Below are positions 1 through 21,355 of a stretch of DNA of 21,355 nucleotides, piece after piece. Numbering within the stretch: position 1 is the stretch's first letter; each line of letters begins with the position of its first letter. Source of the stretch: a virus; the IMG/VR virus record IMGVR_UViG_3300033149_006202, positions 1 to 21,355 of that record. One strand, written 5' to 3'. The notes beneath the pieces were generated by a model. The model was not told the origin of the DNA, searched no databases, and was given only the letters and a program-made list of their open reading frames with translations. The translations under genes and the position numbers were made by a program.

Positions 1-115
1 AGAAAAGAGAGAAAAAGCTGAGAAAAAGAAACGCTGGGACAAAACCTCTGGGCGACCCTCTGGACATAACCAAGAAAGGTTACAAAAATATAGGGAAAAA
101 CGGCGTGGAGTGTAA
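1..115 (+). CDS. C-terminal end of a basic protein (partial)
   Basis: An open frame enters from the left edge (first full codon at base 2) and stops with TAA at 113-115, leaving 37 residues. They are very rich in Lys, Arg and Glu, with Ser-Gly-Arg-Pro-Ser-Gly-His in the middle and a Tyr-Arg-Glu-Lys-Arg-Arg tail, as in a charged nucleic-acid-binding terminus. No domain can be recognised from so short a piece. The coding call rests on the open frame to the edge, the stop just before a noncoding leader, and a strand shared with everything downstream. A chance open frame is possible. Confidence 0.45.
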   Translation, partial: EKREKAEKKKRWDKTSGRPSGHNQERLQKYREKRRGV

Positions 116-134
116 TGCGAAATGCGAAATGCGC
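114..134. repeat. Three tandem 7-bp units (AATGCGA)
   Basis: AATGCGA, AATGCGA and AATGCGC lie head to tail, starting in the stop codon of the partial upstream gene. This is iteron-like in form but too short to assign a role. It sits 9 bp before the first copy of the dispersed palindromic motif. Confidence 0.6.
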
Positions 135-142
135 AACAAAAC

Positions 143-163
143 GTCAAATTTTGACCATTCTGG
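143..163 (+). promoter_or_regulatory. Dispersed palindromic element, copy 1
   Basis: The core GTCAAATTTTGAC (143-155) is a 13-bp inverted repeat with a one-base centre, followed by CATTCTGG. It lies 27 bp upstream of the -35 box of the first promoter and 104 bp upstream of the start codon at 267. It shares orientation and right arm with five other copies in the window. Confidence 0.7.
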
Positions 164-190
164 CCGTTTCACGGCGTGCGTGCAAAACGG

Positions 191-219
191 TTGACAAACT
201 GGCCAAACGGAGTTATGGT
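191..219 (+). promoter_or_regulatory. Sigma70-like promoter for the 267-608 gene
   Basis: A consensus -35 box TTGACA (191-196) and a 17-bp spacer lead to TATGGT (214-219), which matches 4 of 6 positions of the -10 consensus. A start near 226 would give a leader of about 40 nt holding TCATGC-GATT-GCATGA and TGAAAT-AA-ATTTCA stem-loops, then GGAGGT at 255-260 before the ATG at 267. Confidence 0.5.
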
Positions 220-266
220 TTGGGTATCATGCGATTGCATGAAATAAATTTCACGGAGGTGCTAAA

Positions 267-608: not shown

Positions 609-634
609 TCCGCTTGACAAGCTACAACCTGCAT

Positions 635-670
635 GGGCGTAGGCCTTCACGGCTTACGCCCTTTCTTTTT
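635..670 (+). terminator. Rho-independent terminator
   Basis: GGGCGTAGGCC (635-645), loop TTCAC, then GGCTTACGCCC (651-661): an 11-bp stem with one G-U pair, followed directly by TTTCTTTTT (662-670). It lies 26 bp after the stop of the 267-608 gene and closes that unit. Confidence 0.9.
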
Positions 671-1399: not shown

Positions 1400-1736
1400 C
1401 AAAGCTGGCACACACGGAGTGCTGTCAGTGGACGGACGGGCTGTGCTCGTCACGCTTGAACCGCCTGCAGCGGTTGTGCCGCCTGGACAATACAGGCTTC
1501 GCTTGCGGTGGTCGCCACGCTTCAAGCGTAAGCTCTTTGAGGTCGCAGATGTGCCAGGACACACAGATGTGCTGATTCATCCAGGAAACACAATCAAAGA
1601 CACCAAGGGTTGCATCCTTATCGGAACAACGAGGGAGGGCGGAGCCGTGCTTCAGAGCCGCAAGGCTCTCGAAGAGTTTCATCGCCTTCTGGGCGACAGC
1701 TCCGCTGTCTTGGAGGTGAGGGATGCGTGGCCTTAA
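1359..1736 (+). CDS. DUF5675 family protein
   Basis: 125 residues. I chose the ATG at 1359 because GGAGA lies 8 nt upstream and the family homology begins right after it; in-frame ATGs at 1227 and 1344 would add residues that only shadow TerS. The sequence has the family's order: Gly-Val-Leu-Ser-Val-Asp-Gly with Thr-Leu-Glu-Pro (20-35), Pro-Pro-Gly-Gln-Tyr (41-45), Ser-Pro-Arg-Phe (52-55), Val-Pro-Gly-His (65-68), then Ile-His-Pro-Gly-Asn (73-77) and Asp-Thr-Lys-Gly-Cys-Ile-Leu (81-87). The function of DUF5675 is not established. The His-x-Gly-Asn and Gly-Cys pair recalls YkuD L,D-transpeptidases, so a cell-wall role is a guess. The gene overlaps terS by 41 nt and terL by 14 nt. Confidence 0.85.
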   Translation: MPETKVTLTRLSTSKAGTHGVLSVDGRAVLVTLEPPAAVVPPGQYRLRLRWSPRFKRKLFEVADVPGHTDVLIHPGNTIKDTKGCILIGTTREGGAVLQSRKALEEFHRLLGDSSAVLEVRDAWP

Positions 1737-3174
1737 TCCCGTTGTGCTAGAACGTTTACGCTCTTGGCAGGACAATCCGTTGAGGTTTGTGCAAGAATGC
1801 TTCAAATGGCCGAAGGGCCAGGGGCCAACATTCCAGCAGAGAGATGCTCTTCAAGCAATAGCCTTCAGGAAGCGGGTTAGCATTCGAAGCGGCCATGGTT
1901 GCGGAAAGAGTGCCGCTGCGGTGTGGATAGCCTTATGGTTCATGAGCACAAGGGCATATGCTAAAGTGGCTGTCACTGGGCCGACAGGCCGACAGTTGTA
2001 TGACATATTCTGGGCTGAATTGGCCAAATGGTTCAGGCGGTCACGCCTGCAGGACGAGTTTGTGATGCAGAAAGGGAAGTTCTTCTATAAAGCTGCACCC
2101 GAAGACTGGTGGATAAGGCTGATAAGCCCGCGGGTGAAAGCCACGAAGGAGGAGCAAGCGGAAACACTTGCTGGTCTGCACGGCGACCATCTCCTTATCA
2201 TCGTAGATGAGGCCAGTGGCGTGCACGACCCTGTGTTTGTGCCACTGGAAGGGGCCTTGACAAGGCCCGACAACAAAGTCCTGTTGATTGGAAACATGAC
2301 AAAGTCTTCTGGATACTTCTACGACACGCATTTCCATGCTGCCATCAAGCGGAAGTGGGTGCATTTGCACTGGAACAGCGAGAAGTCACCTCTGGTGACG
2401 AAGGAAACTGTAGAATACTTCAGAGATAAATATGGCGAAGATAGCAGCGTTTACGCTGTGCGTATAAAAGGTGACCCTCCGCTCACAGATGAGCGGGCTC
2501 TCATCCCGCTGGAATGGAGTCGTCAGTGCATCGGCAATGAAATTGAAGTTGCTGATGACGAACCGCTCTACCTGAGTGTGGACATCGCCAGATATGGCGA
2601 TGATGTCTCTGTGGTGATGCCCCGTAGGGGTCTTAAGGTCTATGAGTGGGATGTCTTCAAAGACATGAATACAATATCGCTGGCAGGAAACATCCTGCAG
2701 ATGTATACGGAGCGTAATGCTAGCGGCGTCATTCTTGACGAAATCGGTGTTGGAGCGGGTGTCGTAGACTGGCTTGAAAAGCACGGAATGGTCAACTGTT
2801 ACGGAGTAAATGTGTGCTGGAAATCTAGCGACGTCAGTCGCTATCACAGGCTACGGGACGAGCTGTGGTGGACAGTGCGAGAGAAATGTATGCGAGGCCT
2901 TTACTCGTTTCCTCCGACAGAGGAGTCGGAGACACTGTGTGACGAGCTGGCTTCGCCAAAGTATGACTTCAATGCCCAAGGCGGTATTGTTGTTGAGAGC
3001 AAGAAAAAGATGCGGGCTCGTGGTGTCGGAAGCCCGAATAGGGCTGACGCTCTCGTGTTGAGCGAGTATATTAACAGCGTAGCTCACAGGGTGTGGCCTG
3101 TGAAGAAGACGACCGATAGGTCTTCTAGAAAATATTATGCAATAGGTGGAGAACACGCTTGGATGGTAACATAG
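1723..3174 (+). CDS. terL: Terminase large subunit (packaging ATPase/nuclease)
   Basis: 483 residues; the ATG at 1723 has GGAGGTGA just upstream. The N-terminal ATPase has Walker A Ser-Gly-His-Gly-Cys-Gly-Lys-Ser (56-63), Walker B Ile-Ile-Val-Asp-Glu-Ala (159-164) and a likely coupling motif Ile-Gly-Asn-Met-Thr-Lys (189-194). The C-terminal RNase H-like nuclease has its three acidic positions: Asp287 (Ser-Val-Asp-Ile-Ala-Arg), Asp339 (Ile-Leu-Asp-Glu) and Asp442 (Asn-Arg-Ala-Asp-Ala-Leu). It pumps DNA into the prohead through the portal and cuts the concatemer. Both active sites look intact. Perfect stem-loops are dense in this gene (2252-2268, 2583-2602, 2651-2666, 2826-2843, 2912-2931). Confidence 0.96.
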   Translation: MRGLNPVVLERLRSWQDNPLRFVQECFKWPKGQGPTFQQRDALQAIAFRKRVSIRSGHGCGKSAAAVWIALWFMSTRAYAKVAVTGPTGRQLYDIFWAELAKWFRRSRLQDEFVMQKGKFFYKAAPEDWWIRLISPRVKATKEEQAETLAGLHGDHLLIIVDEASGVHDPVFVPLEGALTRPDNKVLLIGNMTKSSGYFYDTHFHAAIKRKWVHLHWNSEKSPLVTKETVEYFRDKYGEDSSVYAVRIKGDPPLTDERALIPLEWSRQCIGNEIEVADDEPLYLSVDIARYGDDVSVVMPRRGLKVYEWDVFKDMNTISLAGNILQMYTERNASGVILDEIGVGAGVVDWLEKHGMVNCYGVNVCWKSSDVSRYHRLRDELWWTVREKCMRGLYSFPPTEESETLCDELASPKYDFNAQGGIVVESKKKMRARGVGSPNRADALVLSEYINSVAHRVWPVKKTTDRSSRKYYAIGGEHAWMVT

Positions 3175-4160: not shown

Positions 4161-4181
4161 GTCAAATTTTGATATTTCTGG
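4161..4181 (+). promoter_or_regulatory. Dispersed palindromic element, copy 3
   Basis: GTCAAATTTTGAT (4161-4173), then ATTTCTGG. It lies 4 nt after a stop codon (4154-4156), and its right end merges into the GGAGG of the next gene. The preceding AT plus the first G form an ATG (4159) opening a 15-codon frame (stop 4204-4206) that begins Met-Ser-Asn-Phe-Asp-Ile-Ser-Gly. Confidence 0.7.
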
Positions 4182-4190: not shown

Positions 4191-4865
4191 ATGGAAAATG
4201 CTTTAATAGATGGCAATTATAATGCTAGCTTGCTAGCCGAAGACGCCGATAGCCATGAAACGGCTCGGCTGCGGTGCAGGAGCAGGGCTCTGGTCATAGT
4301 CGGAGGACCTTTGGTCCTGGCTCTGCAGAAGGTCAACGACAAGTATTCTTGGGGAGATAGTTTTGCGTATCTCCTGATGCCTATTCCAAGCCCTGCGGAC
4401 CTAGATGGCGATGACAGTCTGGACTGCGAGGAGAAAACTGGGATAACAAATACTGACGAAGCCGAGCAGATAAACAAAGTCTTTGTCTTTGCGGACCTTC
4501 AGCACTATTTTGTCTTGCCACCGAAAGGTGGCCTTGTCAGAACGGTCGTTCAGACGGGTATTGCTAGGACAGACGGGACTGGGAATGTCTATCTGACAAA
4601 GATGACGTTCAGTCTGGGCTATGTGGATAGTGCTGGGAGCTTCACTTCTGGGTCTACTGCAGACGCAACGCCTAATTTCTACACAGACAAGACAGATTAT
4701 CAGTTATGCAGCGGGCAAGCTTGGCTCAACTGGGACTTCGACATACCTGATGGACGGATGTTTGCTTTGAGAGCGCAGCTGTATGGGAAGGTCGATAGTG
4801 GTGTGACTGGCAAGATGAAACTTTGTTGCAGTCGAGATGCTTATGACAGTTTTTTGGAGTTTTGA
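4191..4865 (+). CDS. Beta-rich putative virion protein
   Basis: 224 residues; ATG at 4191 with GGAGG at 4180-4184 inside the end of motif copy 3. There is no signal peptide or membrane span. The second half alternates hydrophobic and polar residues with Gly/Ser/Thr/Asp loops, as in a beta-sandwich, and ends in a Cys-Cys-containing strand. This resembles capsid decoration or base-plate proteins, and its loop style is like that of the proteins at 11354 and 11777, though I cannot align them with confidence. Its position before the tailspike gene suggests a spike-attachment or head-surface role. AGGACC-TTT-GGTCCT and GCCACC-GAAA-GGTGGC hairpins are embedded. Confidence 0.65.
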   Translation: MENALIDGNYNASLLAEDADSHETARLRCRSRALVIVGGPLVLALQKVNDKYSWGDSFAYLLMPIPSPADLDGDDSLDCEEKTGITNTDEAEQINKVFVFADLQHYFVLPPKGGLVRTVVQTGIARTDGTGNVYLTKMTFSLGYVDSAGSFTSGSTADATPNFYTDKTDYQLCSGQAWLNWDFDIPDGRMFALRAQLYGKVDSGVTGKMKLCCSRDAYDSFLEF

Positions 4866-4875
4866 GGAGGGGCTT

Positions 4876-6501
4876 ATGCGGTTTTTGACGCAGCAGTTTG
4901 GTTATTGGGGCTATGCTATAAGGAGATTTCTGGAGGAGAATCAAGGAGAAGGGAGTTCGAGTGAAGCGTATGGTGGATATTCAGCACTTGTTTATATTGA
5001 CGGTAGCTTTATAATTGCACGAGATTACAAAGGAGATTTAATTGCTTCAGGCACAGCAGGCATAGATGATGCAAGTGTAATAAATAGTGCTATTACGCAT
5101 GTTAATGGGCAGTTAAATCATGGTCTTGAGAGGGGATTCATTTTTGGTAAAGGATTGCGGTATTATTTAGAAGACACCATTATTTTGAAAGCTGGAGTAA
5201 CATTGAAAGATTTTGTATTTTGGATTAAAGATGGAGTAGACAAAGATGGAATAAAGATTGAAAACTTTGACTCACTTACAGGAACTGATACACCTGCGAC
5301 AGATAGCAGTGTTCCACACAGTTTTGGTTTAATAGATGTTACTGTTTATGGAAACAGAGATAACAATACTTCAGGTTCTGGTGTTAAAATTTATGGGTAT
5401 GGCTTTATTTTAGATGGACTTGCAGTAAAAAAATGTGCTGAGCATGGTCTTTGGTGTGAATGTGGTTATTGTTCTGGTTCTGGATATAGTATTGTGGGAG
5501 AAAACCGTATCGGATCTATATGGGCTGTAAATAATGGTAAGTGTGGAATAGTTCATAAAGGGCCAAACGATACTGTATATGGGTATGTTATAACATATGG
5601 TAACGGGGCTGTTGGAACGCCTGGCCATGGAATGTATATAACGGGGACGAGAGGGAATTGTGATATTAGATATATTCATTCTTATGGCAATGGGGAAGAC
5701 GGTGTCAATGTTGATGAAGGATTTATAAATGCTATCTATATAGAGGCAGAAAGTAACGAAGGCAGAGGGTTGGTTCTAAAAGACCATTGGCATCCTACTG
5801 TTCAATGTTTATATGCATACCACAATAAAAATGAGGCTCTATATGTAAGCGGTGTGCAGTATGGAGGTATTGATTTTGCACTTATACGTGATAATGATTC
5901 AAGTGGTAATACAGTATATATAAGCGCTGAGAAATTTTATGCTAATATTATTTGCAATAATAGTTCTGGGTCTGATTTGTGTAATTTTGGAAAACTTACC
6001 TTTTCAAGAGTAAATCTGATTCTCTTAGGTAACACAAACACAGGCAAAGCCGTTGTTCTAGGAACAACAGATAATAAAATACTATCAAATGTTATAGACG
6101 TCCAAGTTTCATTGAGTAATACCAACGGCCGACTGATGGAAATTCATTCTGATGGTAGAAACATAATTAGAATTAGAGGTGCGACCTATGATTCAACAAA
6201 AGATTGGGATTATTCTACTTATCCCCCTCATTCAACAGACGAGATAAACTATAAAACTAACACTTTGACTTATACACTACCTGAAAAAACAGGTTCAGCT
6301 ACAATTACTAGTGGCAATACTTCTGTAACAGTAAATCATGGATTACCCACAACGCCTACTAACATTCAGTTAACAGGAACTCACTCAGAGGTAAAAGATG
6401 CTTATGTGCCTGAATCCAGTATTACAGATACAAGTTTTGAAATACATGTAGACTCTGCCGTAACAGCAGACAGAGCCGTTTATTGGAAAGCCAAAGTATG
6501 A
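4876..6501 (+). CDS. Tailspike/tail fibre with beta-helix domain
   Basis: 541 residues from the ATG at 4876, which has GAGGAGGGG at 4865-4872; an in-frame ATG at 4837 lies inside the previous gene and lacks a binding site. A short N-terminal segment is followed by a long Gly/Asn/Asp-rich stretch of short strands (about residues 80-430) with the rhythm of a right-handed parallel beta-helix (pectate-lyase-like fold). The last 70 residues (Gly-Ser-Ala-Thr-Ile-Thr-Ser-Gly, then Val-Asn-His-Gly-Leu) form a small C-terminal module I recognise at the ends of many phage fibres. It would bind or cleave the host surface polysaccharide; no catalytic residues can be assigned. From about 4970 the gene is much richer in A+T than its neighbours and has few hairpins, which suggests transfer. 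Confidence 0.8.
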   Translation: MRFLTQQFGYWGYAIRRFLEENQGEGSSSEAYGGYSALVYIDGSFIIARDYKGDLIASGTAGIDDASVINSAITHVNGQLNHGLERGFIFGKGLRYYLEDTIILKAGVTLKDFVFWIKDGVDKDGIKIENFDSLTGTDTPATDSSVPHSFGLIDVTVYGNRDNNTSGSGVKIYGYGFILDGLAVKKCAEHGLWCECGYCSGSGYSIVGENRIGSIWAVNNGKCGIVHKGPNDTVYGYVITYGNGAVGTPGHGMYITGTRGNCDIRYIHSYGNGEDGVNVDEGFINAIYIEAESNEGRGLVLKDHWHPTVQCLYAYHNKNEALYVSGVQYGGIDFALIRDNDSSGNTVYISAEKFYANIICNNSSGSDLCNFGKLTFSRVNLILLGNTNTGKAVVLGTTDNKILSNVIDVQVSLSNTNGRLMEIHSDGRNIIRIRGATYDSTKDWDYSTYPPHSTDEINYKTNTLTYTLPEKTGSATITSGNTSVTVNHGLPTTPTNIQLTGTHSEVKDAYVPESSITDTSFEIHVDSAVTADRAVYWKAKV

Positions 6502-6538: not shown

Positions 6539-6931
6539 ATGGAAGGAGTAACAATTGCGAAGGTGATTACTTTGTTACTGTGTGTTGTGCTCTTAGTGGG
6601 ATGTGCTGCTCGCATGAAAGGCCTCACCAAGAGCTATGACAAGTTTATGAAACAAGCCGATAGGCTTGCTGCTGTGCTGTGCTCGCACAGCGAGTTCTCG
6701 GTCTGCTACTGGAAGGCAGCTCTCGGAGATGACGTTAGCAAAATGCCTGCCGAAGCTATGGAAATCCTCAGCGAAATCGAGACGACCATTAAAGGTCGTA
6801 AGGTCGAGGACCTTACGGAGTGCGAAAAGGGTAAGCTATTGGGCTTGTGGCAGCGGTTTGGCCAGCTCGTAGGTAAAGATGTTATCAAGCGTGTTGTTCC
6901 GTTCATGATGAAGTTTGCGGGAGCACTGTAA
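6539..6931 (+). CDS. Small phage lipoprotein
   Basis: 130 residues; I chose the ATG at 6539 because GGAGG (6526-6530) lies 8 nt upstream and the signal peptide then starts at the N-terminus; the ATG at 6521 has no such site. Residues 5-21 are hydrophobic and end in Leu-Val-Gly-Cys (19-22), a good lipobox, so Cys22 would be lipidated after signal peptidase II cleavage. The mature part is helical with three further Cys and an amphipathic C-terminus. Such proteins in phage are outer-membrane spanin subunits or superinfection-exclusion lipoproteins; neither is proven. A perfect 9-bp stem (6797-6817) and a 7-bp stem (6676-6691) lie inside. The stop shares a base with the next ATG (TAATG). Confidence 0.8.
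   Translation: MEGVTIAKVITLLLCVVLLVGCAARMKGLTKSYDKFMKQADRLAAVLCSHSEFSVCYWKAALGDDVSKMPAEAMEILSEIETTIKGRKVEDLTECEKGKLLGLWQRFGQLVGKDVIKRVVPFMMKFAGAL
6797..6817. repeat. Perfect 9-bp stem-loop in the lipoprotein gene
   Basis: CGTAAGGTC, loop GAG, GACCTTACG. The longest perfect small-loop stem seen in the window, wholly inside coding sequence, with no T-tract, so not a terminator. Confidence 0.9.
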
Positions 6932-7092
6932 TGACGTGGAAGGAGTTCAAGGAGAAAGTCGACGAACGATTGGCGAAGCTTGGGATTGACGAGAACGTCA
7001 ATGTCTGCTGGATTGATGTAGTGCTGTATAGCACTGACGAGATAGATATTGAATATGTCAAGGACGAAGACTGTATTAGGGTGATAGACTGA
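6931..7092 (+). CDS. Small hypothetical protein (53 aa)
   Basis: ATG at 6931 overlaps the previous stop by one base (TAATG), and its own stop TGA (7090-7092) overlaps the next ATG by one base (TGATG), a tight translational relay. The product begins Met-Thr-Trp-Lys-Glu-Phe-Lys-Glu-Lys-Val and is acidic, with a helix then one or two strands (Val-Cys-Trp-Ile-Asp-Val-Val-Leu-Tyr) and an Asp/Glu-rich end. Short proteins of this style are common in phage genomes, without known function. The start-stop overlaps on both sides are the main evidence that it is real. A perfect ATTGACG-AGAA-CGTCAAT stem is at 6985-7002. Confidence 0.75.
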   Translation: MTWKEFKEKVDERLAKLGIDENVNVCWIDVVLYSTDEIDIEYVKDEDCIRVID

Positions 7093-7277
7093 TGGACGAA
7101 GTCTTTGCGAAAGCGATGGAGTTTGTAAAACTGCTTAAGCAGTGGGTCCTAGAAGCTAGAACCAGGTGTCATGAGACTGAAAGTCCTGAAGAGTGCTGCG
7201 AAGCAGCGGAGCAGCTCATTAAGCTGATAGAGAAGTTTGAGAAGTTAATGGAATTAAGGTGGGGCGTCAAAATTTGA
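7092..7277 (+). CDS. Small helical (coiled-coil) protein
   Basis: 61 residues, nearly all predicted helix, with heptad-like Leu/Ile spacing in the second half (Leu-Ile-Lys-Leu-Ile-Glu-Lys-Phe-Glu-Lys-Leu) and a Cys-Cys pair after Glu-Ser-Pro-Glu-Glu. There is no membrane span. It is translationally coupled to the gene upstream. Its stop codon TGA (7275-7277) lies inside motif copy 4. A 14-bp perfect palindrome ACTGCTTAAGCAGT sits at 7130-7143. Function unknown; a partner of the neighbouring lipoprotein or membrane protein is possible. Confidence 0.7.
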   Translation: MDEVFAKAMEFVKLLKQWVLEARTRCHETESPEECCEAAEQLIKLIEKFEKLMELRWGVKI

Positions 7278-7287
7278 CGTTTCTTGG
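7266..7287 (+). promoter_or_regulatory. Dispersed palindromic element, copy 4
   Basis: GTCAAAATTTGAC (7266-7278), a perfect palindrome with one central base, then GTTTCTTGG (one extra T compared with the other copies). It contains the stop codon of the gene before it and runs into the GGAGG of the gene after it. Confidence 0.7.
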
Positions 7288-7295: not shown

Positions 7296-7553
7296 ATGCA
7301 GTCCGAGAAAGAATGGAGGGATTTTAAGATGTGGGCCTCGAAGGCCAAGAGCGAGGAGGCCCTTAAGGTGGTAGCCGCCTTGGTGTGGATTGTCCAAGAC
7401 TTGAGAGATACACTCAAGTCGTTAGACGAACGACTTCATGCAATGGAGGAGAGATGTGGTAAACATCTTTGCAAGTGTGCTAGGCGTGGTAGTGAGCGTT
7501 CTGCTCACAATACTGTGCAGGGAAGTAATGGCGACCAAGAAGATGGTCGCTAA
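7296..7553 (+). CDS. Small helical protein, Cys-containing C-terminus
   Basis: 85 residues from the ATG at 7296 (GGAGG at 7286-7290); an in-frame TTG at 7284 lies within the motif and is less likely. Residues 1-52 form a charged amphipathic helix with a coiled-coil pattern (Val-Gln-Asp-Leu-Arg-Asp-Thr-Leu-Lys-Ser-Leu). The C-terminus has Cys-Gly-Lys-His-Leu-Cys-Lys-Cys, which could bind a metal, then a disordered polar tail. The last 98 nt also encode the start of the next gene in another frame, so the tail may be shaped by that overlap. A perfect AAGTCGTT-AGACG-AACGACTT stem is at 7416-7436. Unrecognised family. Confidence 0.7.
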   Translation: MQSEKEWRDFKMWASKAKSEEALKVVAALVWIVQDLRDTLKSLDERLHAMEERCGKHLCKCARRGSERSAHNTVQGSNGDQEDGR

Positions 7554-7644
7554 AATGAATGCAGAACTTGCTGAGTATAAGGTGCTCGTAGAGCATCGTC
7601 TGACGAGACTGGAAGCGAAAGTTTTTAACAGGGTGTGCAAATGA
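7456..7644 (+). CDS. Single-TM small protein (holin-like candidate)
   Basis: 62 residues from GTG at 7456, with GGAGGA at 7445-7450; an upstream in-frame ATG (7438) would add six residues without a good binding site. Residues 2-21 are one transmembrane helix (Val-Leu-Gly-Val-Val-Val-Ser-Val-Leu-Leu), followed by a basic, heptad-patterned coiled coil to the end. Size and plan (N-terminal TM, charged helix) fit small holin- or XhlA-like phage membrane proteins, but many small phage proteins look like this. It overlaps the previous gene by 98 nt and the portal gene by 4 nt (ATGA). With the upstream lipoprotein it forms the only membrane-directed group in the window. Confidence 0.65.
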   Translation: MVNIFASVLGVVVSVLLTILCREVMATKKMVAKMNAELAEYKVLVEHRLTRLEAKVFNRVCK

Positions 7645-10266: not shown

Positions 10267-10282
10267 TGAGGAGGAGGTAGAA

Positions 10283-12304: not shown

Positions 12305-12340
12305 ATGTCAAAATTTGACTTTTCTGGTGATGTGCGATGA
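12305..12340 (+). other. Mini-ORF (11 codons) spanning motif copy 5
   Basis: ATG (12305) follows the previous stop directly (TAA-ATG), reads Met-Ser-Lys-Phe-Asp-Phe-Ser-Gly-Asp-Val-Arg, and stops with TGA at 12338-12340, overlapping the ATG of the adaptor gene (ATGA). This geometry would suit a coupling or leader peptide. It may equally be a by-product of the DNA motif, since three motif copies have no ATG. Confidence 0.3.
12307..12327 (+). promoter_or_regulatory. Dispersed palindromic element, copy 5
   Basis: GTCAAAATTTGAC (12307-12319), a perfect palindrome around one base, then TTTTCTGG. It lies 2 nt after a stop codon and 9 nt before the adaptor start. Confidence 0.7.
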
Positions 12341-12963
12341 ACCTGCAACAGCTCGTTGATGAAGTGATTGTTGTGCTGGACGACGATAGTGACGAAATCG
12401 TGTCTCGTATTCCTGACTGGATAAACGAGGCAATTGCGACTGCGGTTGAGCGGGCCGAAGTCCCTGGGTTTGGTGTCCTCAACAGCGTTGACACTGTGGT
12501 TGGGCAGGCTTACACGAGCCTGCCCTCGCAGTGCAGCCGTCTGCTGTATGTAGGCGATGGCGACGTGGAGCTCACGATAGTGACGCTTGAAGGGCTATTG
12601 GAGAGGTATCCAGGGATGGACGAGGAAGGTGATGTCGAAGTAGTAGCCGTTGATGGGGCAACGCTGTATTATCAGCCCATTCCTGCGGAAGCGCAGACAT
12701 TGACTGTGCTGTATAGGCGGAAGCCAGCCACGCTCGTAGAACCTGACGATGTCCCCGAAGGGATACCTGAAATGCTGCACCGAAAGGTGATTGTGCAGGG
12801 TGCAGCAGCAATCGGCTTTGGCCTTATCGAAGATGGTATCGAAGAAGGGAAGAAGGTCAATACAGCTGCAGCGATGATGCAGTTTGAGCAGGGACTGCAC
12901 GAGCTACAGGCTTGGGTCGAACGACGGCGAGTCCACAGACCTAGGTCTATCTGGAGGTATTGA
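12337..12963 (+). CDS. Head-tail adaptor, P22 gp4-like
   Basis: 208 residues; ATG at 12337 with a weak GGTGAT site. The N-terminus is a helical bundle starting Asn-Leu-Gln-Gln-Leu-Val-Asp-Glu-Val with Ile-Pro-Asp-Trp-Ile-Asn-Glu-Ala-Ile near residue 25-33, a pattern typical of phage adaptor proteins. A beta-rich middle (Leu-Tyr-Tyr-Gln-Pro-Ile-Pro, Leu-Tyr-Arg-Arg-Lys-Pro) and a C-terminal pair of helices (Arg-Lys-Val-Ile-Val-Gln-Gly-Ala-Ala-Ala-Ile, then Trp-Val-Glu-Arg-Arg-Arg) follow. It would bind under the portal ring and close the head after packaging. A perfect 9-bp stem (12502-12525) lies inside. The portal family and position make this more likely than a generic structural protein. 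Confidence 0.7.
   Translation: MNLQQLVDEVIVVLDDDSDEIVSRIPDWINEAIATAVERAEVPGFGVLNSVDTVVGQAYTSLPSQCSRLLYVGDGDVELTIVTLEGLLERYPGMDEEGDVEVVAVDGATLYYQPIPAEAQTLTVLYRRKPATLVEPDDVPEGIPEMLHRKVIVQGAAAIGFGLIEDGIEEGKKVNTAAAMMQFEQGLHELQAWVERRRVHRPRSIWRY
12502..12525. repeat. Perfect 9-bp stem-loop in the adaptor gene
   Basis: GGGCAGGCT, loop TACACG, AGCCTGCCC. Fully inside coding sequence, without a T-tract. Confidence 0.9.
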
Positions 12964-13850
12964 TGGCTCTAGCAAGAGTGTTACAGAGCCCGAGGGGGCT
13001 AGACAATCGGCATGACCCTGTTACGCTCTGCCGAGAGGGTGTTTGTTATCTGGCAGCGGCTTACAACGTAGATGTCGAGAGACGGGTGTGCAGACGAAAG
13101 GGCTACCGAAAGGTCGTGGACCTTCCAGGGCATAGCCCATATCCTTATTTTGGTGGATGTCTGTTTGTTTCCAACGGGAGGCTGATGCTGCTATCGCCAG
13201 ATTACAGCTACGCCACCCTGAGGGTGGGGCTGCACGATAGTGCTATGAGCTATGCAACTGTGTTTAACAGAGTGTATTACAGCAACGGCTATGAGAACGG
13301 CTATGTTGAAAACGCTGAAAGCCACCCTTGGGAAGTTGGCGAATATGTTGGGCCAGACACGACGAGAGTCTTTAGCGACCCTCCGATAGGACACATTCTG
13401 TGCTTGTGGAACGGAAGAATGTTTATAGCCGAAGGCTCAACACTCTGGTATAGTGAGCCATTTGCATATCATGCTTACGACCTCGGTCGCAACTTTGTCC
13501 CTTTTTCCAGCAGAATACGGATGGTTATCGGCATCGCCGATGGGATATTTGTCAGCGACGAACGTATGACGTATGCCCTGGTGGGCAGCAGTCCCGAGGA
13601 TTGGTTTGTCAGAAAGGTAGCGGACTACCCTGCTGTGGAGGGCACAGCCCTTCACGTGGAGAGCAGCCGCATAGGCGATGGGAGTTTGCCGCCTGGCATG
13701 TATGCTATGTGGATGAGTGCACGAGGTATCTGCCTCGGTGGCCTTAATGGCTACTTCAGAAATTTGACGGAAGAGCATGTCAAGTGCCCTGCGGGCACTC
13801 GAGGGACTGCCCTTATCAGGGACGGAAGATATATAACAATTGTGTGGTAG
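12963..13850 (+). CDS. Tail stopper / propeller protein, P22 gp10-like
   Basis: 295 residues from the ATG at 12963, which shares a base with the previous stop (TGATG) and has GGAGG at 12953-12957. The N-terminus has Arg-Gly-Leu-Asp-Asn-Arg, then Ala-Ala-Tyr-Asn-Val-Asp-Val and Arg-Arg-Lys-Gly-Tyr-Arg-Lys-Val: the NVD-then-RRxGY pattern I associate with phage tail hub or DNA-stabilisation proteins. The rest is repeated strands with Leu-Trp-Asn-Gly-Arg-Met-Phe-Ile-Ala and Thr-Leu-Trp-Tyr-Ser-Glu-Pro, a beta-propeller feature seen in gp10-type stoppers. It is shorter than P22 gp10 (about 470 residues). It would plug or extend the adaptor ring. A 7-bp stem lies at 13783-13799. Confidence 0.7.
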   Translation: MALARVLQSPRGLDNRHDPVTLCREGVCYLAAAYNVDVERRVCRRKGYRKVVDLPGHSPYPYFGGCLFVSNGRLMLLSPDYSYATLRVGLHDSAMSYATVFNRVYYSNGYENGYVENAESHPWEVGEYVGPDTTRVFSDPPIGHILCLWNGRMFIAEGSTLWYSEPFAYHAYDLGRNFVPFSSRIRMVIGIADGIFVSDERMTYALVGSSPEDWFVRKVADYPAVEGTALHVESSRIGDGSLPPGMYAMWMSARGICLGGLNGYFRNLTEEHVKCPAGTRGTALIRDGRYITIVW

Positions 13851-13859
13851 GAGGAAGTT

Positions 13860-14579
13860 ATGCTGAAACTAAGCACGGGATTGAAGAATAGTTTGCTCGG
13901 AAACGCCACTCTGAAAGGAACTTCGTTGGCCTATCACGATGGTGGAGCTGGGAATGACTATATCACAGACAGCGAGAACAGGTTCTTGGATGCGGGCTTC
14001 AAGGTCGGTGATAAAATCACGACTACTGGGTCTACGACTGGCAGCAACGACATGTCTGATGTGGAGATTTTGGCTGTTTCTGCAGGCAAACTGGAGTTTG
14101 CCACAGGCACTGTGGCAGCGGAAGAAGCCTTCAACGAGAACACGGTCTTGAAAAGCAACAATGGAGGCTCTCTCGAAGAGCTTTTCAAGGACGGTGTCCT
14201 TGAGATATACAGTGGGAGTCAGCCAGCTGATGCAGACAGTGGTGAAACGGGCACGAAGCTCGTGAGAATCACGCTGAACAGCGGTGCTTTCACGCCTGGC
14301 TCACCAGACAACGGTCTCGAGTTCGAGGCTCCGATAAACGGAGTGATAGGGAAGAAGAGTGGTGATGTCTGGAGCGGTGTTGGCTTGGCCGACGGGACGG
14401 CTGGGTGGTTTCGCCTGTATGACAACAAATATCACACAGGTGATAACAAAGCTGCCGTTAGGCTCGACGGGGCCTGTGGTGTTGGGAGTGGGCAGCTGAA
14501 GCTGTCTAGCCTGACCATAAAGGAGGGCGTGACGATAACGATAGACAGTTTTGATATTGACATCAGAGGAGCTTCGTAA
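13860..14579 (+). CDS. Phage structural protein with an inserted beta domain
   Basis: 239 residues; ATG at 13860 with GGAGG. The start (Leu-Lys-Leu-Ser-Thr-Gly-Leu-Lys-Asn-Ser-Leu-Leu-Gly) and the second half (Leu-Phe-Lys-Asp-Gly-Val-Leu-Glu-Ile-Tyr-Ser-Gly, then Gln-Pro-Ala-Asp-Ala, Gly-Thr-Lys-Leu, Ala-Gly-Trp-Phe-Arg-Leu-Tyr-Asp) match a widespread family of phage virion proteins that are usually shorter. In those the start runs straight into the Glu-Ile-Tyr-Ser-Gly segment. Here residues about 17-104 form an extra beta module (Tyr-Ile-Thr-Asp-Ser, Ala-Gly-Phe-Lys-Val-Gly-Asp-Lys-Ile-Thr). It is coupled to the next gene. A perfect TCAAGGAC-GGT-GTCCTTGA stem is at 14185-14203. Confidence 0.7.
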   Translation: MLKLSTGLKNSLLGNATLKGTSLAYHDGGAGNDYITDSENRFLDAGFKVGDKITTTGSTTGSNDMSDVEILAVSAGKLEFATGTVAAEEAFNENTVLKSNNGGSLEELFKDGVLEIYSGSQPADADSGETGTKLVRITLNSGAFTPGSPDNGLEFEAPINGVIGKKSGDVWSGVGLADGTAGWFRLYDNKYHTGDNKAAVRLDGACGVGSGQLKLSSLTIKEGVTITIDSFDIDIRGAS

Positions 14580-14962
14580 TGGGTGTCTGGTGTAATGACG
14601 CTATGCTCGACACAGCGTTGAACTGGCTTAAGGATGGGGCTGACAAGCTATGCTTGTGTAGTCAGCAACCTGCTTCCTATACGGAAGCAACGTCTACATA
14701 TTGCCTTGGCTCGATAGCCATTGGCAGTGCCAATTTTGGAGAGATTGAGGATGGGCTCGTCTCGGGGAGACGTGTGACGGTGAATGTGGCTGATGCCATT
14801 CCTGTAGACACTACGGGTGTGCTCAACCATGTTGCTCTTGTGAGCGACATCTCGCAAGAGCTGCTGTATGTTGTTCCCTGTCCTGAAAGGGACGTTGCTC
14901 AGGGGAGTGAGGTTGTGCTTGGCCAGTTCTACGTAGAACTGCGAGACCCAATTTCGGTGTAG
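14579..14962 (+). CDS. Conserved phage structural protein
   Basis: 127 residues; the ATG shares its first base with the previous stop (TAATG), with GAGGAG upstream. The pattern Asp-Thr-Ala-Leu-Asn-Trp-Leu-Lys, Leu-Cys-Leu-Cys-Ser-Gln-Gln-Pro, Tyr-Thr-Glu-Ala-Thr-Ser-Thr-Tyr-Cys-Leu-Gly-Ser, Ser-Gly-Arg-Arg-Val-Thr-Val and His-Val-Ala-Leu-Val belongs to a common phage family normally found beside the family of the preceding gene. The role is probably a surface or tail-attached beta-sandwich. Three unusually strong inverted repeats lie in this short gene: 14671-14689 (TGCTTCC stem), 14834-14861 and 14924-14941. Confidence 0.75.
   Translation: MGVWCNDAMLDTALNWLKDGADKLCLCSQQPASYTEATSTYCLGSIAIGSANFGEIEDGLVSGRRVTVNVADAIPVDTTGVLNHVALVSDISQELLYVVPCPERDVAQGSEVVLGQFYVELRDPISV
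14834..14861. repeat. 11-bp stem-loop in coding sequence
   Basis: GCTCTTGTGAG, loop CGACAT, CTCGCAAGAGC: 11 pairs of which one is G-U. No T-tract follows. Confidence 0.85.
14924..14941. repeat. 18-bp perfect palindrome
   Basis: CAGTTCTAC followed directly by GTAGAACTG, 21 nt before the end of the gene. Chance expectation for an 18-bp perfect palindrome in 21 kb is about 0.08. Confidence 0.9.
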
Positions 14963-14972
14963 GAGGTATGTT

Positions 14973-15473
14973 ATGAAGATTGCTGCAACTGTGCGTGCCT
15001 TCTGGGAGTGGGAACTTTGGAGGAACAACGTTCTGCTTGACCAGTGGGCATACTGCAATAAGATTGTGACACAGGGGCTGAATGCCTGGCTTGACATAAT
15101 GTTTCACGGTGCTACGCAGGTTGGAACGTGGTATATTCTCATATTTGAGGATGATTATACGCCCGCCTCTGGCGATACGTATCAGAGCCCAGGATTCACA
15201 GAGTGCACTGCGTATGACGAGGCTACAAGGCCAGCGTTCAATGAGGGTGCTGCAAGCAATGGGACGATAAACAATTACAGTAATCCTGCAGTGTTCAGCA
15301 TCAACGCTACGAAAACCGTGTATGGTGCTGCTCTTGTAAGTGACAGCACGAAGGGTGATAGCAGTGCTGGGCATTATATGTTTTCGGCAGCGAACTATGG
15401 TGAGGGCAAGCCCGTCGAGAGCGGCGATACGCTGAAAGTGAAGCTTGCCATTACAGTGACAAGCACCACATAG
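14973..15473 (+). CDS. Conserved phage structural protein
   Basis: 166 residues; ATG at 14973 with GGAGG. After an N-terminal strand region come Lys-Ile-Val-Thr-Gln-Gly-Leu-Asn-Ala-Trp-Leu-Asp-Ile-Met-Phe-His-Gly-Ala-Thr-Gln (about 29-48), Thr-Trp-Tyr-Ile-Leu-Ile-Phe, and Glu-Cys-Thr-Ala-Tyr-Asp-Glu-Ala-Thr-Arg-Pro. The second half has Phe-Ser-Ile-Asn-Ala-Thr-Lys-Thr-Val-Tyr-Gly-Ala and Leu-Val-Ser-Asp-Ser-Thr-Lys-Gly. I recognise this order from a family frequent in podovirus and siphovirus structural clusters, without a named function. It is likely a virion surface or tail component. It follows the related small structural genes with no gap for another promoter. Confidence 0.75.
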   Translation: MKIAATVRAFWEWELWRNNVLLDQWAYCNKIVTQGLNAWLDIMFHGATQVGTWYILIFEDDYTPASGDTYQSPGFTECTAYDEATRPAFNEGAASNGTINNYSNPAVFSINATKTVYGAALVSDSTKGDSSAGHYMFSAANYGEGKPVESGDTLKVKLAITVTSTT

Positions 15474-15485
15474 TGGAGGTGAGGC

Positions 15486-17033
15486 TTGGCGGTTACTTGG
15501 AACCCAAACGACAAGAATAATATCAATCTCTCTGACGATAACTTAACAGCTTGGGGTGTGATTTTTGCTAATGGGACTGTTCGTGCCACTGAAAGTCGCT
15601 CCTCTGGGAAGTGGTATTGGGAAATACAGTATCATCATGGCTCAGATGCTTACACCTATTTTGGAATAGCGACGAGTAGTCATGACATCACGAAGTGGAT
15701 AGGCTCTACCAGCGACAGCTACTGCTTTCGTTTCGAGAGTAGTGGCGGGGCGCAGAAATGGCATGATAACGCTGGCGAGGACTACGGTTCTTCTCTCGCT
15801 GATGGCGATATCGTCATGATTGCCCTTGACCTCGACGATGGCAAGATATGGTGGGGCAAAAACGGAGCGTGGTTCGAAGGTGGTGACCCAGCAGCTGGAA
15901 CCAATCCAGCATACACAAGTGTTCTTGGAGAGTTCTTTCCTGCGGCTTCTTTCTATCACGATACTACTAAGCAGACGGCTAAGTTCCACTCACAGAGCCT
16001 TGCCTATTCGCCTCCCTCAGGCTTTCAGCCTTTGGAAGGTGGAGAGGTCGTCACGCATATTGTCTATTTCAGCGAAGAAGCTGGAGCCTCTGACTCGTAT
16101 GATACTACAATGGGCTATACTAAGACCATTGAGGAAGAGGCTGCTGTCTCGGATACATACGATGTTCCTGCTCCTGTCTACATGACCTTTGCCGAGGCAG
16201 CAACAGTATCCGAGCGTTACGACTTTCCGAGCCCTATATATGCAGGAATCACTGAGCTATCCTCGGTAGAGGATGCTTATGCACCGTTTGCCTTGACGGC
16301 AGTTGTAGAGGAGGAAGCTGCTGGTGCTGATGCCTATGCTACAAATCTGAGATTTGCCACAGGCGAAGACGGAGGCCTTGTCCAAGACCACTGGGAGTTC
16401 ACAGTTGCACGGAAGGCTTCACCTGTTAACAGCTACATCGGGCATGTTGGCAGCTCTCCGACTGTTGATGTTACAAAAGGCCCAATTACTGGGGATGCTA
16501 CTGTAGACGTTGCTGCTGATGTGGCAGGACTTGGCGGAGCTGTTCTGTCGGAAGGTATTGAGGTTTCTTGCAAGGCAACTGCTTCGCAGGTCATTGTGGC
16601 ACAGGGCGTTGCGTCTGCAACGCTCGGCGTGGAGGCCCTGGGTGCTAGCTTTGCAGAGGCAACCACGGAAGTGGATGTTGACGCTACAGGCTGTGTTAGC
16701 ACGCTTGGCAATGCTATCGCAGAGTTGCTGTTGGGCGTGAGCGGTGAGGCCAGTGCAGAGATTAGAGGTCAAGGTGATGCAAGCATTGTTTCTCATGTCA
16801 GTGCCACTGGTCACAGTGATACTGCTGCTGAAGGTCAGGTCGATGTAATTGTTGGGCTGAAAGCTACAGGTGTGATTGGCAAACTTGTTTGTGGCGAATG
16901 CACCTTACAGCTCACTGCGGAGGGAAGCGGAGCTCCAGTGCCAACAGGTGAGGCCGAGACCGAAATCAGCCTTGGGCTGCAGGCAACTGCAAGGGCGAAT
17001 ATTGGAATATGTGTGCTGAGGTATACAAGATAA
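15486..17033 (+). CDS. Tail/surface protein with SPRY domain and two repeat regions
   Basis: 515 residues from TTG at 15486, with GGAGGTGAGG just before it; no ATG precedes the domain. Residues 4-183 are a SPRY (B30.2-type) fold: Gly-Lys-Trp-Tyr-Trp-Glu-Ile (41-47), Tyr-Phe-Gly-Ile-Ala (58-62), Leu-Asp-Leu-Asp-Asp-Gly-Lys-Ile-Trp-Trp-Gly-Lys-Asn-Gly-Ala-Trp (114-129) and Phe-Phe-Pro-Ala-Ala-Ser (150-155). Five imperfect 20-residue repeats follow (about 195-288: Glu-Glu-Ala-x-x-Ser-Asp-x-Tyr-Asp), then a Gly/Ala/Val/Glu repeat zone (about 330-505) that reads like an extended beta fibre shaft. SPRY domains bind proteins or glycans. The likely role is receptor or carbohydrate binding on the virion. 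It ends 3 nt before motif copy 6. Confidence 0.8.
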   Translation: MAVTWNPNDKNNINLSDDNLTAWGVIFANGTVRATESRSSGKWYWEIQYHHGSDAYTYFGIATSSHDITKWIGSTSDSYCFRFESSGGAQKWHDNAGEDYGSSLADGDIVMIALDLDDGKIWWGKNGAWFEGGDPAAGTNPAYTSVLGEFFPAASFYHDTTKQTAKFHSQSLAYSPPSGFQPLEGGEVVTHIVYFSEEAGASDSYDTTMGYTKTIEEEAAVSDTYDVPAPVYMTFAEAATVSERYDFPSPIYAGITELSSVEDAYAPFALTAVVEEEAAGADAYATNLRFATGEDGGLVQDHWEFTVARKASPVNSYIGHVGSSPTVDVTKGPITGDATVDVAADVAGLGGAVLSEGIEVSCKATASQVIVAQGVASATLGVEALGASFAEATTEVDVDATGCVSTLGNAIAELLLGVSGEASAEIRGQGDASIVSHVSATGHSDTAAEGQVDVIVGLKATGVIGKLVCGECTLQLTAEGSGAPVPTGEAETEISLGLQATARANIGICVLRYTR

Positions 17034-17034: not shown

Positions 17035-17544
17035 ATGTCAAATTTTAACATTTCTGTAAATGTTGAGGCCGAAGGCCATGTGGAGTGCTGGGACAGGCTA
17101 TGCCTGTCGATGAGCCTGCGGCGACTAGCTGTTAGCCAGTATGGTAACTACAATTTTGATGGCCTTGTGGAAATGAACGGAGTTCCTCTCGCCTTTAGCA
17201 AGGATGGTATATATGCCCTCGAGGGTGATGATGACGACGGGCAGCCTATACAAGCCCTGCTTGAATTCATGACAGACATGGGGTCTGAAAGACAGAAGAG
17301 GTTGCGGAGCTGTTATCTTGGTTGTGAAGCCGATGGCAACCTGCGGCTAGTGCTGCAAAACGACGAGGGGAACATGCGTGAGCACGTGCTTGTGTGCAAG
17401 CCTACACAGCACTCCGTCAGGACAGCCGTAGGTAGGAGCGGACGAGGACGTTATTGGACGTTTACAGTTGAAAACGTGGATGGCTGCTACTTCTGTGTTG
17501 ACACGGTCGATGCTGTGGTAACAGTGATGCGGAGGAAACCGTGA
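17035..17544 (+). CDS. Conserved phage tail-associated protein
   Basis: 169 residues. The ATG at 17035 overlaps the first base of motif copy 6, so the element encodes its first residues (Met-Ser-Asn-Phe-Asn-Ile-Ser-Val). The ribosome site is weak: GAGG lies 13 nt upstream. The body has Tyr-Asn-Phe-Asp-Gly-Leu-Val-Glu-Met-Asn-Gly, Ser-Lys-Asp-Gly-Ile-Tyr-Ala-Leu-Glu-Gly-Asp-Asp-Asp-Asp-Gly, Arg-Leu-Arg-Ser-Cys-Tyr-Leu-Gly, Gly-Arg-Gly-Arg-Tyr-Trp-Thr-Phe and Glu-Asn-Val-Asp-Gly, a pattern common to an unnamed phage structural family. A later start cannot be excluded but would lose a folded strand. The end overlaps the next gene by 4 nt. Confidence 0.75.
   Translation: MSNFNISVNVEAEGHVECWDRLCLSMSLRRLAVSQYGNYNFDGLVEMNGVPLAFSKDGIYALEGDDDDGQPIQALLEFMTDMGSERQKRLRSCYLGCEADGNLRLVLQNDEGNMREHVLVCKPTQHSVRTAVGRSGRGRYWTFTVENVDGCYFCVDTVDAVVTVMRRKP
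17037..17057 (+). promoter_or_regulatory. Dispersed palindromic element, copy 6
   Basis: GTCAAATTTTAAC (17037-17049), then ATTTCTGT. Unlike the other copies it lies within a coding start; the gene before it ends at 17033. Confidence 0.6.
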
Positions 17545-19277: not shown

Positions 19278-21138
19278 GGATTACCTAGCTGAGATAACGT
19301 CACTGGTGGAGAGTAAGTTCAGGAACGCAGAGGACTATGCAGATGCCACGTGGCAGTCCGCCGTCAATTACCTGAGCGACCTCTCCAGCATTGTGGCAGA
19401 CTTTGATTTTAATCCTGTTGACCTAGACTTCTCGATAGAGCCAATCAGCGTAGGGTCGTATGACCCTGCAAGGCCAACTAGGCCAGACTTGGATGTGCAA
19501 TTGCCAGACACACCGAGTGCGGCGTCTCTGGACAAAGTCTCGGTAGAGGACGTTGATGTTCCAGATATAGACTTTGTTGCTCCAGACATTAGCCTACCAG
19601 AGACACCACAAGTGTCTTGGCCGCAGGAGCCTGGTGAACCACCACAGATTGAAGACGTGGAGGTCCCGTCGAAGCCAGATTATGAGCTTCCAGACGTGCC
19701 ATCGCTCGACGAAATCGTGCTGCCTGATGCACCAGAAGTGGATGTTCCGCAGATGGATATTGACATACCGTCTATTGACATAGAGACACCAAGTCTAATC
19801 TTTGATTATAGTGAAGCTATGCATAGCAGTGACCTCAGTGACGCTCTAGCGTCAAAGCTGCTAAGTGGTGTCAGAGACGGAGCGACGGGCTTGCCTGCTG
19901 ACGTCGAAGACGCTATCTGGCAACGAGCACGAGACCGCAATGCTTTGCGGAATGAGCAGATGTATCGAGAGGCCGAGAACTATTTTGCTTCTCGTGGTCA
20001 CACGCTTCCGCCAGGAGCCCTAGCGGGACGCCTTGCACAGGTGCAGCAAGAAATTGCAAGGAGCGAGCAGCAGCTCAACTACGAGATTAGCATTGAGCAA
20101 GCTCGACTTGCACAGCGAAATACACAGTTTATGATAACTGCTGCGTTGCAGTATGAGCAGCAAATAATGCAGTATGAAGATGGTATGGCTCGAAGGTCGC
20201 TGCAAGCAGCACAGTATGTGCAGCAAGCATCGTTAGACCTGTTCAGAGCAGAGATTGCGAAGCACCAGCTGTTGCTGGAGCGATATCGCTCGGCGGCAGC
20301 TGTTTACGAGTCCAAGATTCGTGCAGGACTTGCTCTGCTAGAGCAGTATAGGCTTCGCCTTACGGCGTCACGATTGCAAGCTGACATACAAAGGACACAA
20401 GTCGAGCTATATAGGACGCAAGTCGGTGCGTTGGAGACGCTGATGAGGCTGTACACCACAGAGATGGATGCGGCAAGACTACGTCTTGACGTTAGTCGCA
20501 TGCGATTAGCTGCGTTTGGCGAGAAGGTGCGTGCTTACGCATCTACGATTGCTGCCAACACCGCAAAGTATAATGCCTATCAGGCCGCCATCGCTGGCGA
20601 AACTGCGAAAGTGCAGATGTATGGCGAGCAGGTTAGGGCATATCTTGGGAAGGTGGAGGCAGCCAGGGCGAAGAGCTCTATCAAGATAGCTGAAGCAGCA
20701 ACGAAGTTGGATGCAAACCGCTTGAAGATAGAACAGTATAGGGCTGACATCGACCAATATAGGGCGAGGATTGCAAGCTTGCTTGGTGAGGTGGAGACGA
20801 AGGCGAGAGCCTACGGCTATGACGTCAGCATGTATGCTGCTGATGTTGGCCTGGCAAGAACGAAAATAGATGGGGACATAGCAAGCTATGCAGCTCGAAC
20901 CAGACATATTGACGCCGCCGTGCGACAAGCACTTGCACAGGCGGAAATAAATCTCAATGCTGCACTGCGGTTGCACGAAGTGCAGGCAAATGCGGTGAAA
21001 GCTGGTGCTACAGTAACAGCACAGATGGCTGCATCTGCATTGTCGTCTGTAGCTGCAGGAGCGAACATGAGTTATAGAGGTGGGTATAGTGTTAGTCAAG
21101 CGACAGACTTTGGCTACTATTATCACTATTATCCATAG
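19270..21138 (+). CDS. Helical rod protein with extended Asp/Pro-rich arm
   Basis: 622 residues; ATG at 19270 with GGAGG, overlapping the previous gene by 8 nt. Residues 1-45 are helical; 46-178 are an extended, very acidic Pro/Asp/Val segment with recurring Val-x-Val-Pro and Ile-x-Ile-Pro units; about 185-580 are long Ala/Gln/Arg/Glu helices with little Gly or Pro, giving a coiled-coil rod; the end is Gly/Ser then Tyr/His-rich (Gly-Tyr-Tyr-Tyr-His-Tyr-Tyr-Pro). The stretch Ala-Ile-Trp-Gln-Arg-Ala-Arg-Asp-Arg and Leu-Pro-Pro-Gly-Ala-Leu-Ala-Gly-Arg-Leu (about 213-256) matches uncharacterised phage proteins I have seen in similar clusters. Needle, ejection or tape-measure-like roles are options. 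A 14-bp palindrome lies at 20278-20291. Confidence 0.75.
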   Translation: MSKDYLAEITSLVESKFRNAEDYADATWQSAVNYLSDLSSIVADFDFNPVDLDFSIEPISVGSYDPARPTRPDLDVQLPDTPSAASLDKVSVEDVDVPDIDFVAPDISLPETPQVSWPQEPGEPPQIEDVEVPSKPDYELPDVPSLDEIVLPDAPEVDVPQMDIDIPSIDIETPSLIFDYSEAMHSSDLSDALASKLLSGVRDGATGLPADVEDAIWQRARDRNALRNEQMYREAENYFASRGHTLPPGALAGRLAQVQQEIARSEQQLNYEISIEQARLAQRNTQFMITAALQYEQQIMQYEDGMARRSLQAAQYVQQASLDLFRAEIAKHQLLLERYRSAAAVYESKIRAGLALLEQYRLRLTASRLQADIQRTQVELYRTQVGALETLMRLYTTEMDAARLRLDVSRMRLAAFGEKVRAYASTIAANTAKYNAYQAAIAGETAKVQMYGEQVRAYLGKVEAARAKSSIKIAEAATKLDANRLKIEQYRADIDQYRARIASLLGEVETKARAYGYDVSMYAADVGLARTKIDGDIASYAARTRHIDAAVRQALAQAEINLNAALRLHEVQANAVKAGATVTAQMAASALSSVAAGANMSYRGGYSVSQATDFGYYYHYYP

Positions 21139-21147
21139 GAGGATAAG

Positions 21148-21355
21148 ATGATATTACCGTTTCCTTATCCGAGATGGTATGTAGAGAAGAGGATAGCGGA
21201 GGAGAGAAGGACGACTAGAGCTCCTGTTGGTCATCCACGCTCTGGACACTTCGTGTCCGAAGAGGACCTCATGAAATGGTATGAGCAGAGGGAGGCTGCG
21301 AAAGAGGTTGCAGCACTGCAAGACCTTATAGAGCAAGCTGCTACCCGACGGGCTG
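21148..21355 (+). CDS. Hypothetical phage protein, 3' end missing
   Basis: ATG at 21148 with GGAGG at 21138-21142, open to the window edge (69 codons visible). It starts Met-Ile-Leu-Pro-Phe-Pro-Tyr-Pro-Arg-Trp-Tyr-Val-Glu-Lys-Arg, is basic in the first half (Arg-Arg-Thr-Thr-Arg), has Ser-Gly-His-Phe-Val-Ser-Glu-Glu-Asp-Leu near 35, then a charged helix with Trp-Tyr-Glu-Gln-Arg-Glu. No domain is recognised. It continues the structural operon. Confidence 0.8.
   Translation, partial: MILPFPYPRWYVEKRIAEERRTTRAPVGHPRSGHFVSEEDLMKWYEQREAAKEVAALQDLIEQAATRRA

Follow-up and report, generated by a model that had tools for sequence, protein, structure and literature searches.

The window, i.e., the whole stretch of 21,355 nucleotides analysed here, is a 21.4-kb virus record that contains a tailed phage's late module, with genes for terminase, portal, head, head closure, and further structural proteins, and its main late-module genes lie on the + strand throughout. 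Judged by the terminase, portal, and head genes, the DNA of this phage is expected to be double-stranded. The features that define the window are as follows:

1723–3174, + strand, terminase large subunit (PHROG phrog_2, 1e-39)
7635–9485, + strand, portal protein (PHROG phrog_156, 8.6e-99)
10283–11341, + strand, major head protein (PHROG phrog_334, 1.3e-59), the query for finding relatives
12960–13850, + strand, head closure Hc3-like protein (PHROG phrog_8040, 1.8e-35)
143–162, 801–820, 4161–4180, 7266–7284, 12307–12326 and 17037–17056, + strand, copies of the GTCAAAWTTTGAC element
1–21355, no strand assigned, hairpin-dense segment with 120 perfect stems (arms of at least 6 bp, loops of 0–6 nt)

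The repeated element consists of the palindromic core GTCAAAWTTTGAC followed by TTTCTG, is located mostly directly 5' of gene starts, and is a candidate operator or phage promoter signal. A search by pattern recovers four copies in G001 and six in G008, on both strands, and zero copies in G006 and G007. Moreover, the gene at 4837–6501 has a low GC content (~0.36) and for the most part aligns hardly or not at all with relatives, being possibly an exchanged tail-spike module.

The head-protein query retrieves 75 related loci, seven of which share 96–97% of the head-protein residues. Two whole-genome relatives of 37 kb each, G001 and G008, add the leftward early genes, which include a fusion of uracil-DNA glycosylase and family A polymerase (UDG–PolA), an ATP-dependent ligase, a DUF3987 protein, and a ParB-like methylase. 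The UDG–PolA fusion is present, at 46–59% identity, in most of the compared records of the phage family. In the related locus L092, a single protein (13239–15551, − strand) combines uracil-DNA glycosylase, 3'-5' exonuclease, and family A DNA polymerase, and the adjoining gene (15548–16840, − strand) encodes an N6/N4 DNA methylase fused to a ParB-like domain that scores slightly below the Pfam cut-off. The same locus encodes two neighbouring, similar-looking small proteins (10186–10566 and 10627–11166, − strand), both of which are found in the window clade and neither in the other compared records. The GC content of the hairpin-rich window clade is 0.48–0.51, against 0.40–0.42 in its nearest sisters L007–L010. 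A search for cellular relatives as a clue to the host gave three genome matches, all of them weak and uninformative.

The original prediction, made from the letters of the window, was that this DNA is packed with short perfect stem-loops, mostly inside genes. Counting every perfect inverted repeat with a loop of 0–6 nt as a stem, by minimum arm length and against dinucleotide-preserving shuffles, the window holds 120 stems with arms of at least 6 bp (28.7 in shuffles, z = 18.4), 50 with arms of at least 7 bp (7.2, z = 16.6), and 15 with arms of at least 8 bp (1.7, z = 9.5). Thus, the predicted excess is real and was understated: the figure of at least 37 stems holds as a lower bound but undercounts the 50 with arms of at least 7 bp, while all 16 of the examples listed at the time are exact in position. 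The overrepresentation of 3–4 nt loops, also foreseen, is confirmed (23 stems against 1.9 in shuffles for arms of at least 7 bp), and lowering the minimum arm to 6 bp raises the number further, as had been expected, to 55 against 7.5. In coding sequence, 105 stems with arms of at least 6 bp compare with 28–30 in shuffles of synonymous codons of three types, one of them preserving dinucleotides as well, so the excess survives the very control, keeping protein and codon usage, on which the prediction had staked its refutation. Most stems with arms of at least 7 bp are indeed found inside genes (45 of 50), although hairpin density is higher in intergenic DNA (14.1% against 8.6% of bases), and T-tracts are as scarce as claimed, following one of 100 stem sides where 2.9 would be expected. 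A preference for codon phase, which had been proposed as a check, was not seen, the stems falling into the three registers as 36/31/39.

With arms of at least 6 bp, the excess in the window, G001, and G008 is highest at 3-nt loops, where it reaches 7-fold; it is strong at loops of 2, 4, and 5 nt and fades beyond 6–9 nt, in the window from 7 nt onwards. The window has 107 separate hairpins with loops of 1–6 nt, one per ~200 bp, with diverse arm sequences and random spacing, and no regular spacing was seen. This random distribution speaks for a bulk property, such as shielding or compacting single strands, rather than for positioned signals. The excess is found in genes of both strands, including the leftward early genes, and no avoidance of gene starts was seen in the window. 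Furthermore, it reaches pairs formed solely by codon positions 1 and 2, with the expectation taken from base composition by codon position, so that the amino-acid sequence appears to be bent too. Individual hairpins (no strand assigned) illustrate how pairing is kept or rebuilt among relatives:

1107–1125, 8-bp arms and 3-nt loop, perfect in three relatives and with 7 of 8 pairs in two
2912–2931, 7-bp arms, perfect pairing in 7 of 8 relatives
6797–6817, 9-bp arm and 3-nt loop, inside a lipoprotein-like gene, fast-diverging
7531–7550, perfect pairing retained in g010 and L002 by compensatory change of both sides
13213–13227, stem in which three pairs in a row differ from relatives in both arms (CAC/GTG vs TGT/ACA); the coupled amino-acid changes swap Thr and Val, and the 1-nt loop is complemented too
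14085–14117, pair of overlapping hairpins with 8-bp arms

The trait is confined to particular lineages. Among 17 long records of the phage family, compared by the observed/expected ratio for arms of at least 6 bp and loops of 3–5 nt, a strong excess occurs in four, namely the window, G001, G008, and G006, with 4.5–6.4x in the window clade and 2.7x in G006, against 0.7–1.8x in the 13 other full records. The nearest sister, G007, at 76% head-protein identity, has a ratio of 1.2, and G006 and the window have ~60% of their head-protein residues in common. In turn, L036 and L038, which are much closer to G006 (80–82% head-protein identity), reach only 1.2–1.3, and, since these closer relatives have no excess, the trait looks as though it was gained twice, i.e., independently in the window clade and in G006, as far as these sequence comparisons indicate. 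Outside the family, lambda, T7, four more phages, and three plasmids show ratios of 1.1–2.3. A tblastn search for genes confined to the two hairpin-rich lineages returned none, and for this reason the host, or a host-specific cellular factor, probably decides whether the bias is present. The polymerase family was rejected as the cause, as every relative in which a polymerase was found carries the same UDG–PolA. Likewise, temperature was rejected as the sole cause, as the hairpin-rich L005 and its hairpin-free sister L009 bear the same metagenome number.

Two processes could enrich a genome in hairpins, and they leave different traces in the gain and loss of pairs. The first is sequence-directed mutagenesis, in which the polymerase switches template within a hairpin, by snap-back or strand switch, and rewrites one arm to match the other, so that near-palindromes turn perfect without benefit to the phage, which has its own UDG–family A polymerase. 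The second is a bias in fixation. Gains and losses were measured in the window clade only, among relatives at 85–91% identity, with mid-stem pairs defined as those having at least five flanking pairs and rates given relative to base rates. A mid-stem mismatch becomes a pair at 1.59 [1.32–1.88] of the base rate, and a mid-stem pair is lost at 0.61 [0.50–0.72]. From the static odds in the same data, selection predicts 1.73/0.55 (gain/loss) and mutation bias 2.83/0.89, while simulations at comparable odds give 1.57/0.64 for selection and 2.0–2.3/0.75–0.88 for mutation bias. By calculation and simulation alike, the mid-stem kinetics are a better match to a selection-like fixation bias than to a template-switch mutation bias, and they correspond to a bias worth about one scaled unit for each base pair. 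The test presumes near-equilibrium and similar behaviour among hairpins; its main weakness is that strong heterogeneity of correction rate among hairpins could mimic selection. Moreover, the outer pairs of longer arms (k = 4–6) lean towards mutation, with gains exceeding losses (D 0.27 [0.06–0.47]), and a mixture of selection and mutation bias behind the excess is possible. In sister clades without excess, a simpler estimator based on the outermost pair gives gains of 0.66–0.98 and losses of 0.95–1.03, which indicates that there is no pairing bias there.

One-sided changes within stems occur at 0.72–0.81 of expectation, alike for G.U, A.C, and other products, and two-sided compensatory changes, which the original prediction had suggested seeking among homologues, at 2.2 times expectation. 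The value for mismatches turning into other mismatches is 0.89, and the idea that unpaired bases are simply hypermutable was rejected on this ground. Counting against a fixation bias, stems are not depleted of differences between very closely related genomes (30 against ~19 expected, most of them from a single genome pair).

Template switching itself has left recognizable products. Exact loop inversions with arms intact or nearly so occur at ~8 loci, far above armless controls; four of these loci differ at three bases or more and several at just two, and the latter could be two ordinary substitutions. Representative cases are the following (no strand assigned):

163–175, loop inversion vs g008 (tttca / tgaaa), 4-bp arms intact
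7020–7035, loop inversion vs L090 (gtat / atac)
16606–16623, loop inversion vs g001 (gtct / agac), 4 of 4 loop bases differing and 6 of 7 arm pairs kept
19452–19467, loop inversion vs g001 and g008 (gtat / atac)
near 35924 of g008, loop inversion (aca/tgt)

Judging by these alignments, template switching is real in the window clade, with a rate per hairpin that is not clearly above that of sisters without excess (5 loci in 2535 hairpins against 1 in 1175). The one-arm rewriting that such a process should leave is not apparent: 6 of 11 unique stems with two changes have both in one arm (null 5.5), and none of those with three or more changes has all of them in one arm. Block template switches were rejected, as clusters explained by a reverse complement barely exceed controls, and so was pure outward snap-back, as inward gains equal outward gains. 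The changed arm shows no left/right bias either (24 vs 21). With similar inversion rates in sisters and no one-arm blocks, template switching alone does not explain the excess, and the polymerase family does not set the sisters apart. Nevertheless, besides the inversions, the compensatory changes, and the outer pairs, the excess of short inverted repeats in coding sequence is what this mechanism would produce, and the marks of hairpin stability described below would suit fold-back nucleation. Template switching is described in PMC8794818, stem-loop synthesis by the family A polymerase Pol theta is reported in PMC11292364, and a mutational origin is the account that Ladoukakis and Eyre-Walker (2008, as cited in PMC4060949) gave for the weaker bacterial excess. 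Of the causes offered by the original prediction, this one is thus upheld as a process at individual loci, while the rate per hairpin, the missing one-arm blocks, and the mid-stem kinetics make it a rather doubtful main source of the excess.

The loops indicate the kind of strand that folds. For loops of 3–5 nt, the closing pair is 5'C-G3' rather than 5'G-C3' in a proportion of 178:45 in the clade and 28:3 in G006 plus L045; the corresponding figures are 191:137 for codon shuffles and 73:80 for other phages. Triloops of the form cGNAg are enriched 10.7x in the clade, 26x in G006, and 1.5x in 13 other records, and cTNCg triloops 10.2x, 18x, and 1.0x, respectively. Since TNC is GNA read on the opposite strand, both strands matter equally. 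In lambda, T7, Thermus P23-45, the Aquifex and Aliivibrio plasmids, and others, these loop and closing marks are absent or amount at most to a weak C-G lean. The d(cGNAg) hairpin has far greater stability as DNA than as RNA. Among d(GNA) triloops, CG is the preferred closing pair (PMC5815330), and extraordinarily stable mini-hairpins with stems of 2–3 bp melt at 76–88 °C (PMC10527192). By contrast, the RNA-type tetraloop rule is not seen, as GNRA tetraloops with C-G closing are enriched no more than GNYA (14x vs 15x). In single-mismatch stems, A.C and G.U are equally enriched relative to expectation. This equal treatment, together with the strand-equal loop enrichment, points to hairpins acting at the level of folded DNA strands instead of mRNA, insofar as base patterns can tell.

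Selection for locally folded mRNA, another cause that had been offered, is therefore disfavoured. It would agree with the location of most hairpins inside genes and with the selection-like kinetics, and Katz and Burge (2003, as cited in PMC4060949) proposed it for bacteria. RNA folding energies against codon shuffles give it one further point, a weak sense lean in the early leftward genes (sense −11.2, antisense −9.0, difference z −1.9). However, late genes fold equally on both strands (sense z −12.4, antisense z −11.8, difference 0.1), G.U is tolerated no better than A.C, GNA and TNC loops are enriched alike, and hairpins are not avoided near gene starts and are denser between genes. mRNA selection is thus an unlikely cause, indeed quite an improbable one. 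Biased gene conversion, in which phage recombination would preferentially keep the alleles that pair within a hairpin, produces kinetics identical to those of selection without any benefit, and it would share the strand symmetry; no enzyme with such a conversion bias is known, and this route seems just as improbable. Finally, composition, codon usage, terminators, or regulatory palindromes are refuted as the main cause and have almost no standing left, since, although a repeated 25-nt element accounts for some intergenic palindromes, codon- and dinucleotide-preserving shuffles give low counts, T-tracts are absent after stems, and coding sequence holds 45 of 50 stems with diverse arms.

The reading preferred here, whose prospects fall just short of even, is a fixation bias at the DNA level, in its simplest form selection favouring hairpins where the genome DNA is transiently single-stranded. 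Under this reading, the window lineage and, independently, its distant relative G006 would have acquired a genome-wide, strand-symmetric bias for short DNA hairpins, which may represent natural selection for the capacity of each DNA strand to fold once it is unpaired. Its likely setting would be a stage with long unpaired stretches of both strands, during replication, recombination, entry, or packaging, where hairpins could protect, compact, or mark the single strand. Such putative single-stranded intermediates, the remaining suggestion of the original prediction, agree best with the DNA-type loop signature and the selection-like kinetics, and they are the leading guess for what selection acts on. 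Counting against the fixation-bias reading, the analysis brought to light neither a single-stranded stage nor a reader protein or function, and selection in phages does not usually take the form of a weak per-pair advantage repeated at hundreds of sites. The fuller proposal is put forward only tentatively: a tailed phage lineage with double-stranded DNA would be evolving under selection, throughout its genome, for hairpins of single-stranded DNA, cGNAg mini-hairpins of the DNA type among them, and this would imply that single strands of the entire genome are read or attacked at some stage of the life cycle or by some host system.

The origin of extra inverted repeats in coding sequence is disputed between mutation and mRNA selection, and a fixation bias at the DNA level is predicted by neither of these standard accounts. 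The family of the window is an extreme case in which two hairpin-rich lineages serve as natural replicates and sister phages as matched controls, with relatives near enough to follow gains and losses of hairpins. If confirmed, the bias would reveal a single-stranded stage or a host pressure new to tailed phages.

Genome-wide selection for secondary structure is familiar from single-stranded DNA and RNA viruses, which resemble the window in the selection-like conservation of pairing across coding regions, whereas the window belongs to a tailed phage expected to be double-stranded. Phage N4 uses DNA hairpin promoters that are short, with 3-nt purine loops closed by C-G, and thus shares short DNA hairpins, loop length, and closing pair with the window. 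However, N4 has a few promoters with a flanking consensus, and the window lineage has hundreds of hairpins with diverse arms. The template-switch hairpins of PMC8794818 show loop inversions and compensatory changes as well, but they serve functional RNAs, while those of the window fill protein genes and have mid-stem rates that misfit mutation bias. According to PMC6649704, Nematomorpha mitochondria carry perfect inverted repeats in protein genes, likewise in particular lineages, with palindromes of up to 284 bp in contrast to the 6–9 bp arms and 3–4 nt loops of the window. In a survey of 118,019 genomes with arms of at least 10 bp, substitutions are depleted in arms and in excess in spacers (PMC13155455), the same direction as the substitution rates found here (arm 0.78, loop 1.14). 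Closest in kind is the excess of short perfect repeats of 6–9 bp in bacterial genes, beyond chance as in the window, which is small and ascribed to sequence-directed mutagenesis or mRNA selection (Huang and Mrazek 2014, PMC4060949). The excess of Ladoukakis and Eyre-Walker, as presented there, is small, against 3–7 fold at 3–5 nt loops here, where it is limited to two phage lineages. The same text describes some genera as extremely over-represented in inverted repeats; the loop signature was compared here for two Aliivibrio plasmids, and the one whose excess is 2.3x does not carry the C-G closing and GNA loop marks of these two lineages. Thus, while the small bacterial excess is already known, what is new here is an excess that is strong, confined to lineages, and accompanied by a DNA-hairpin signature.
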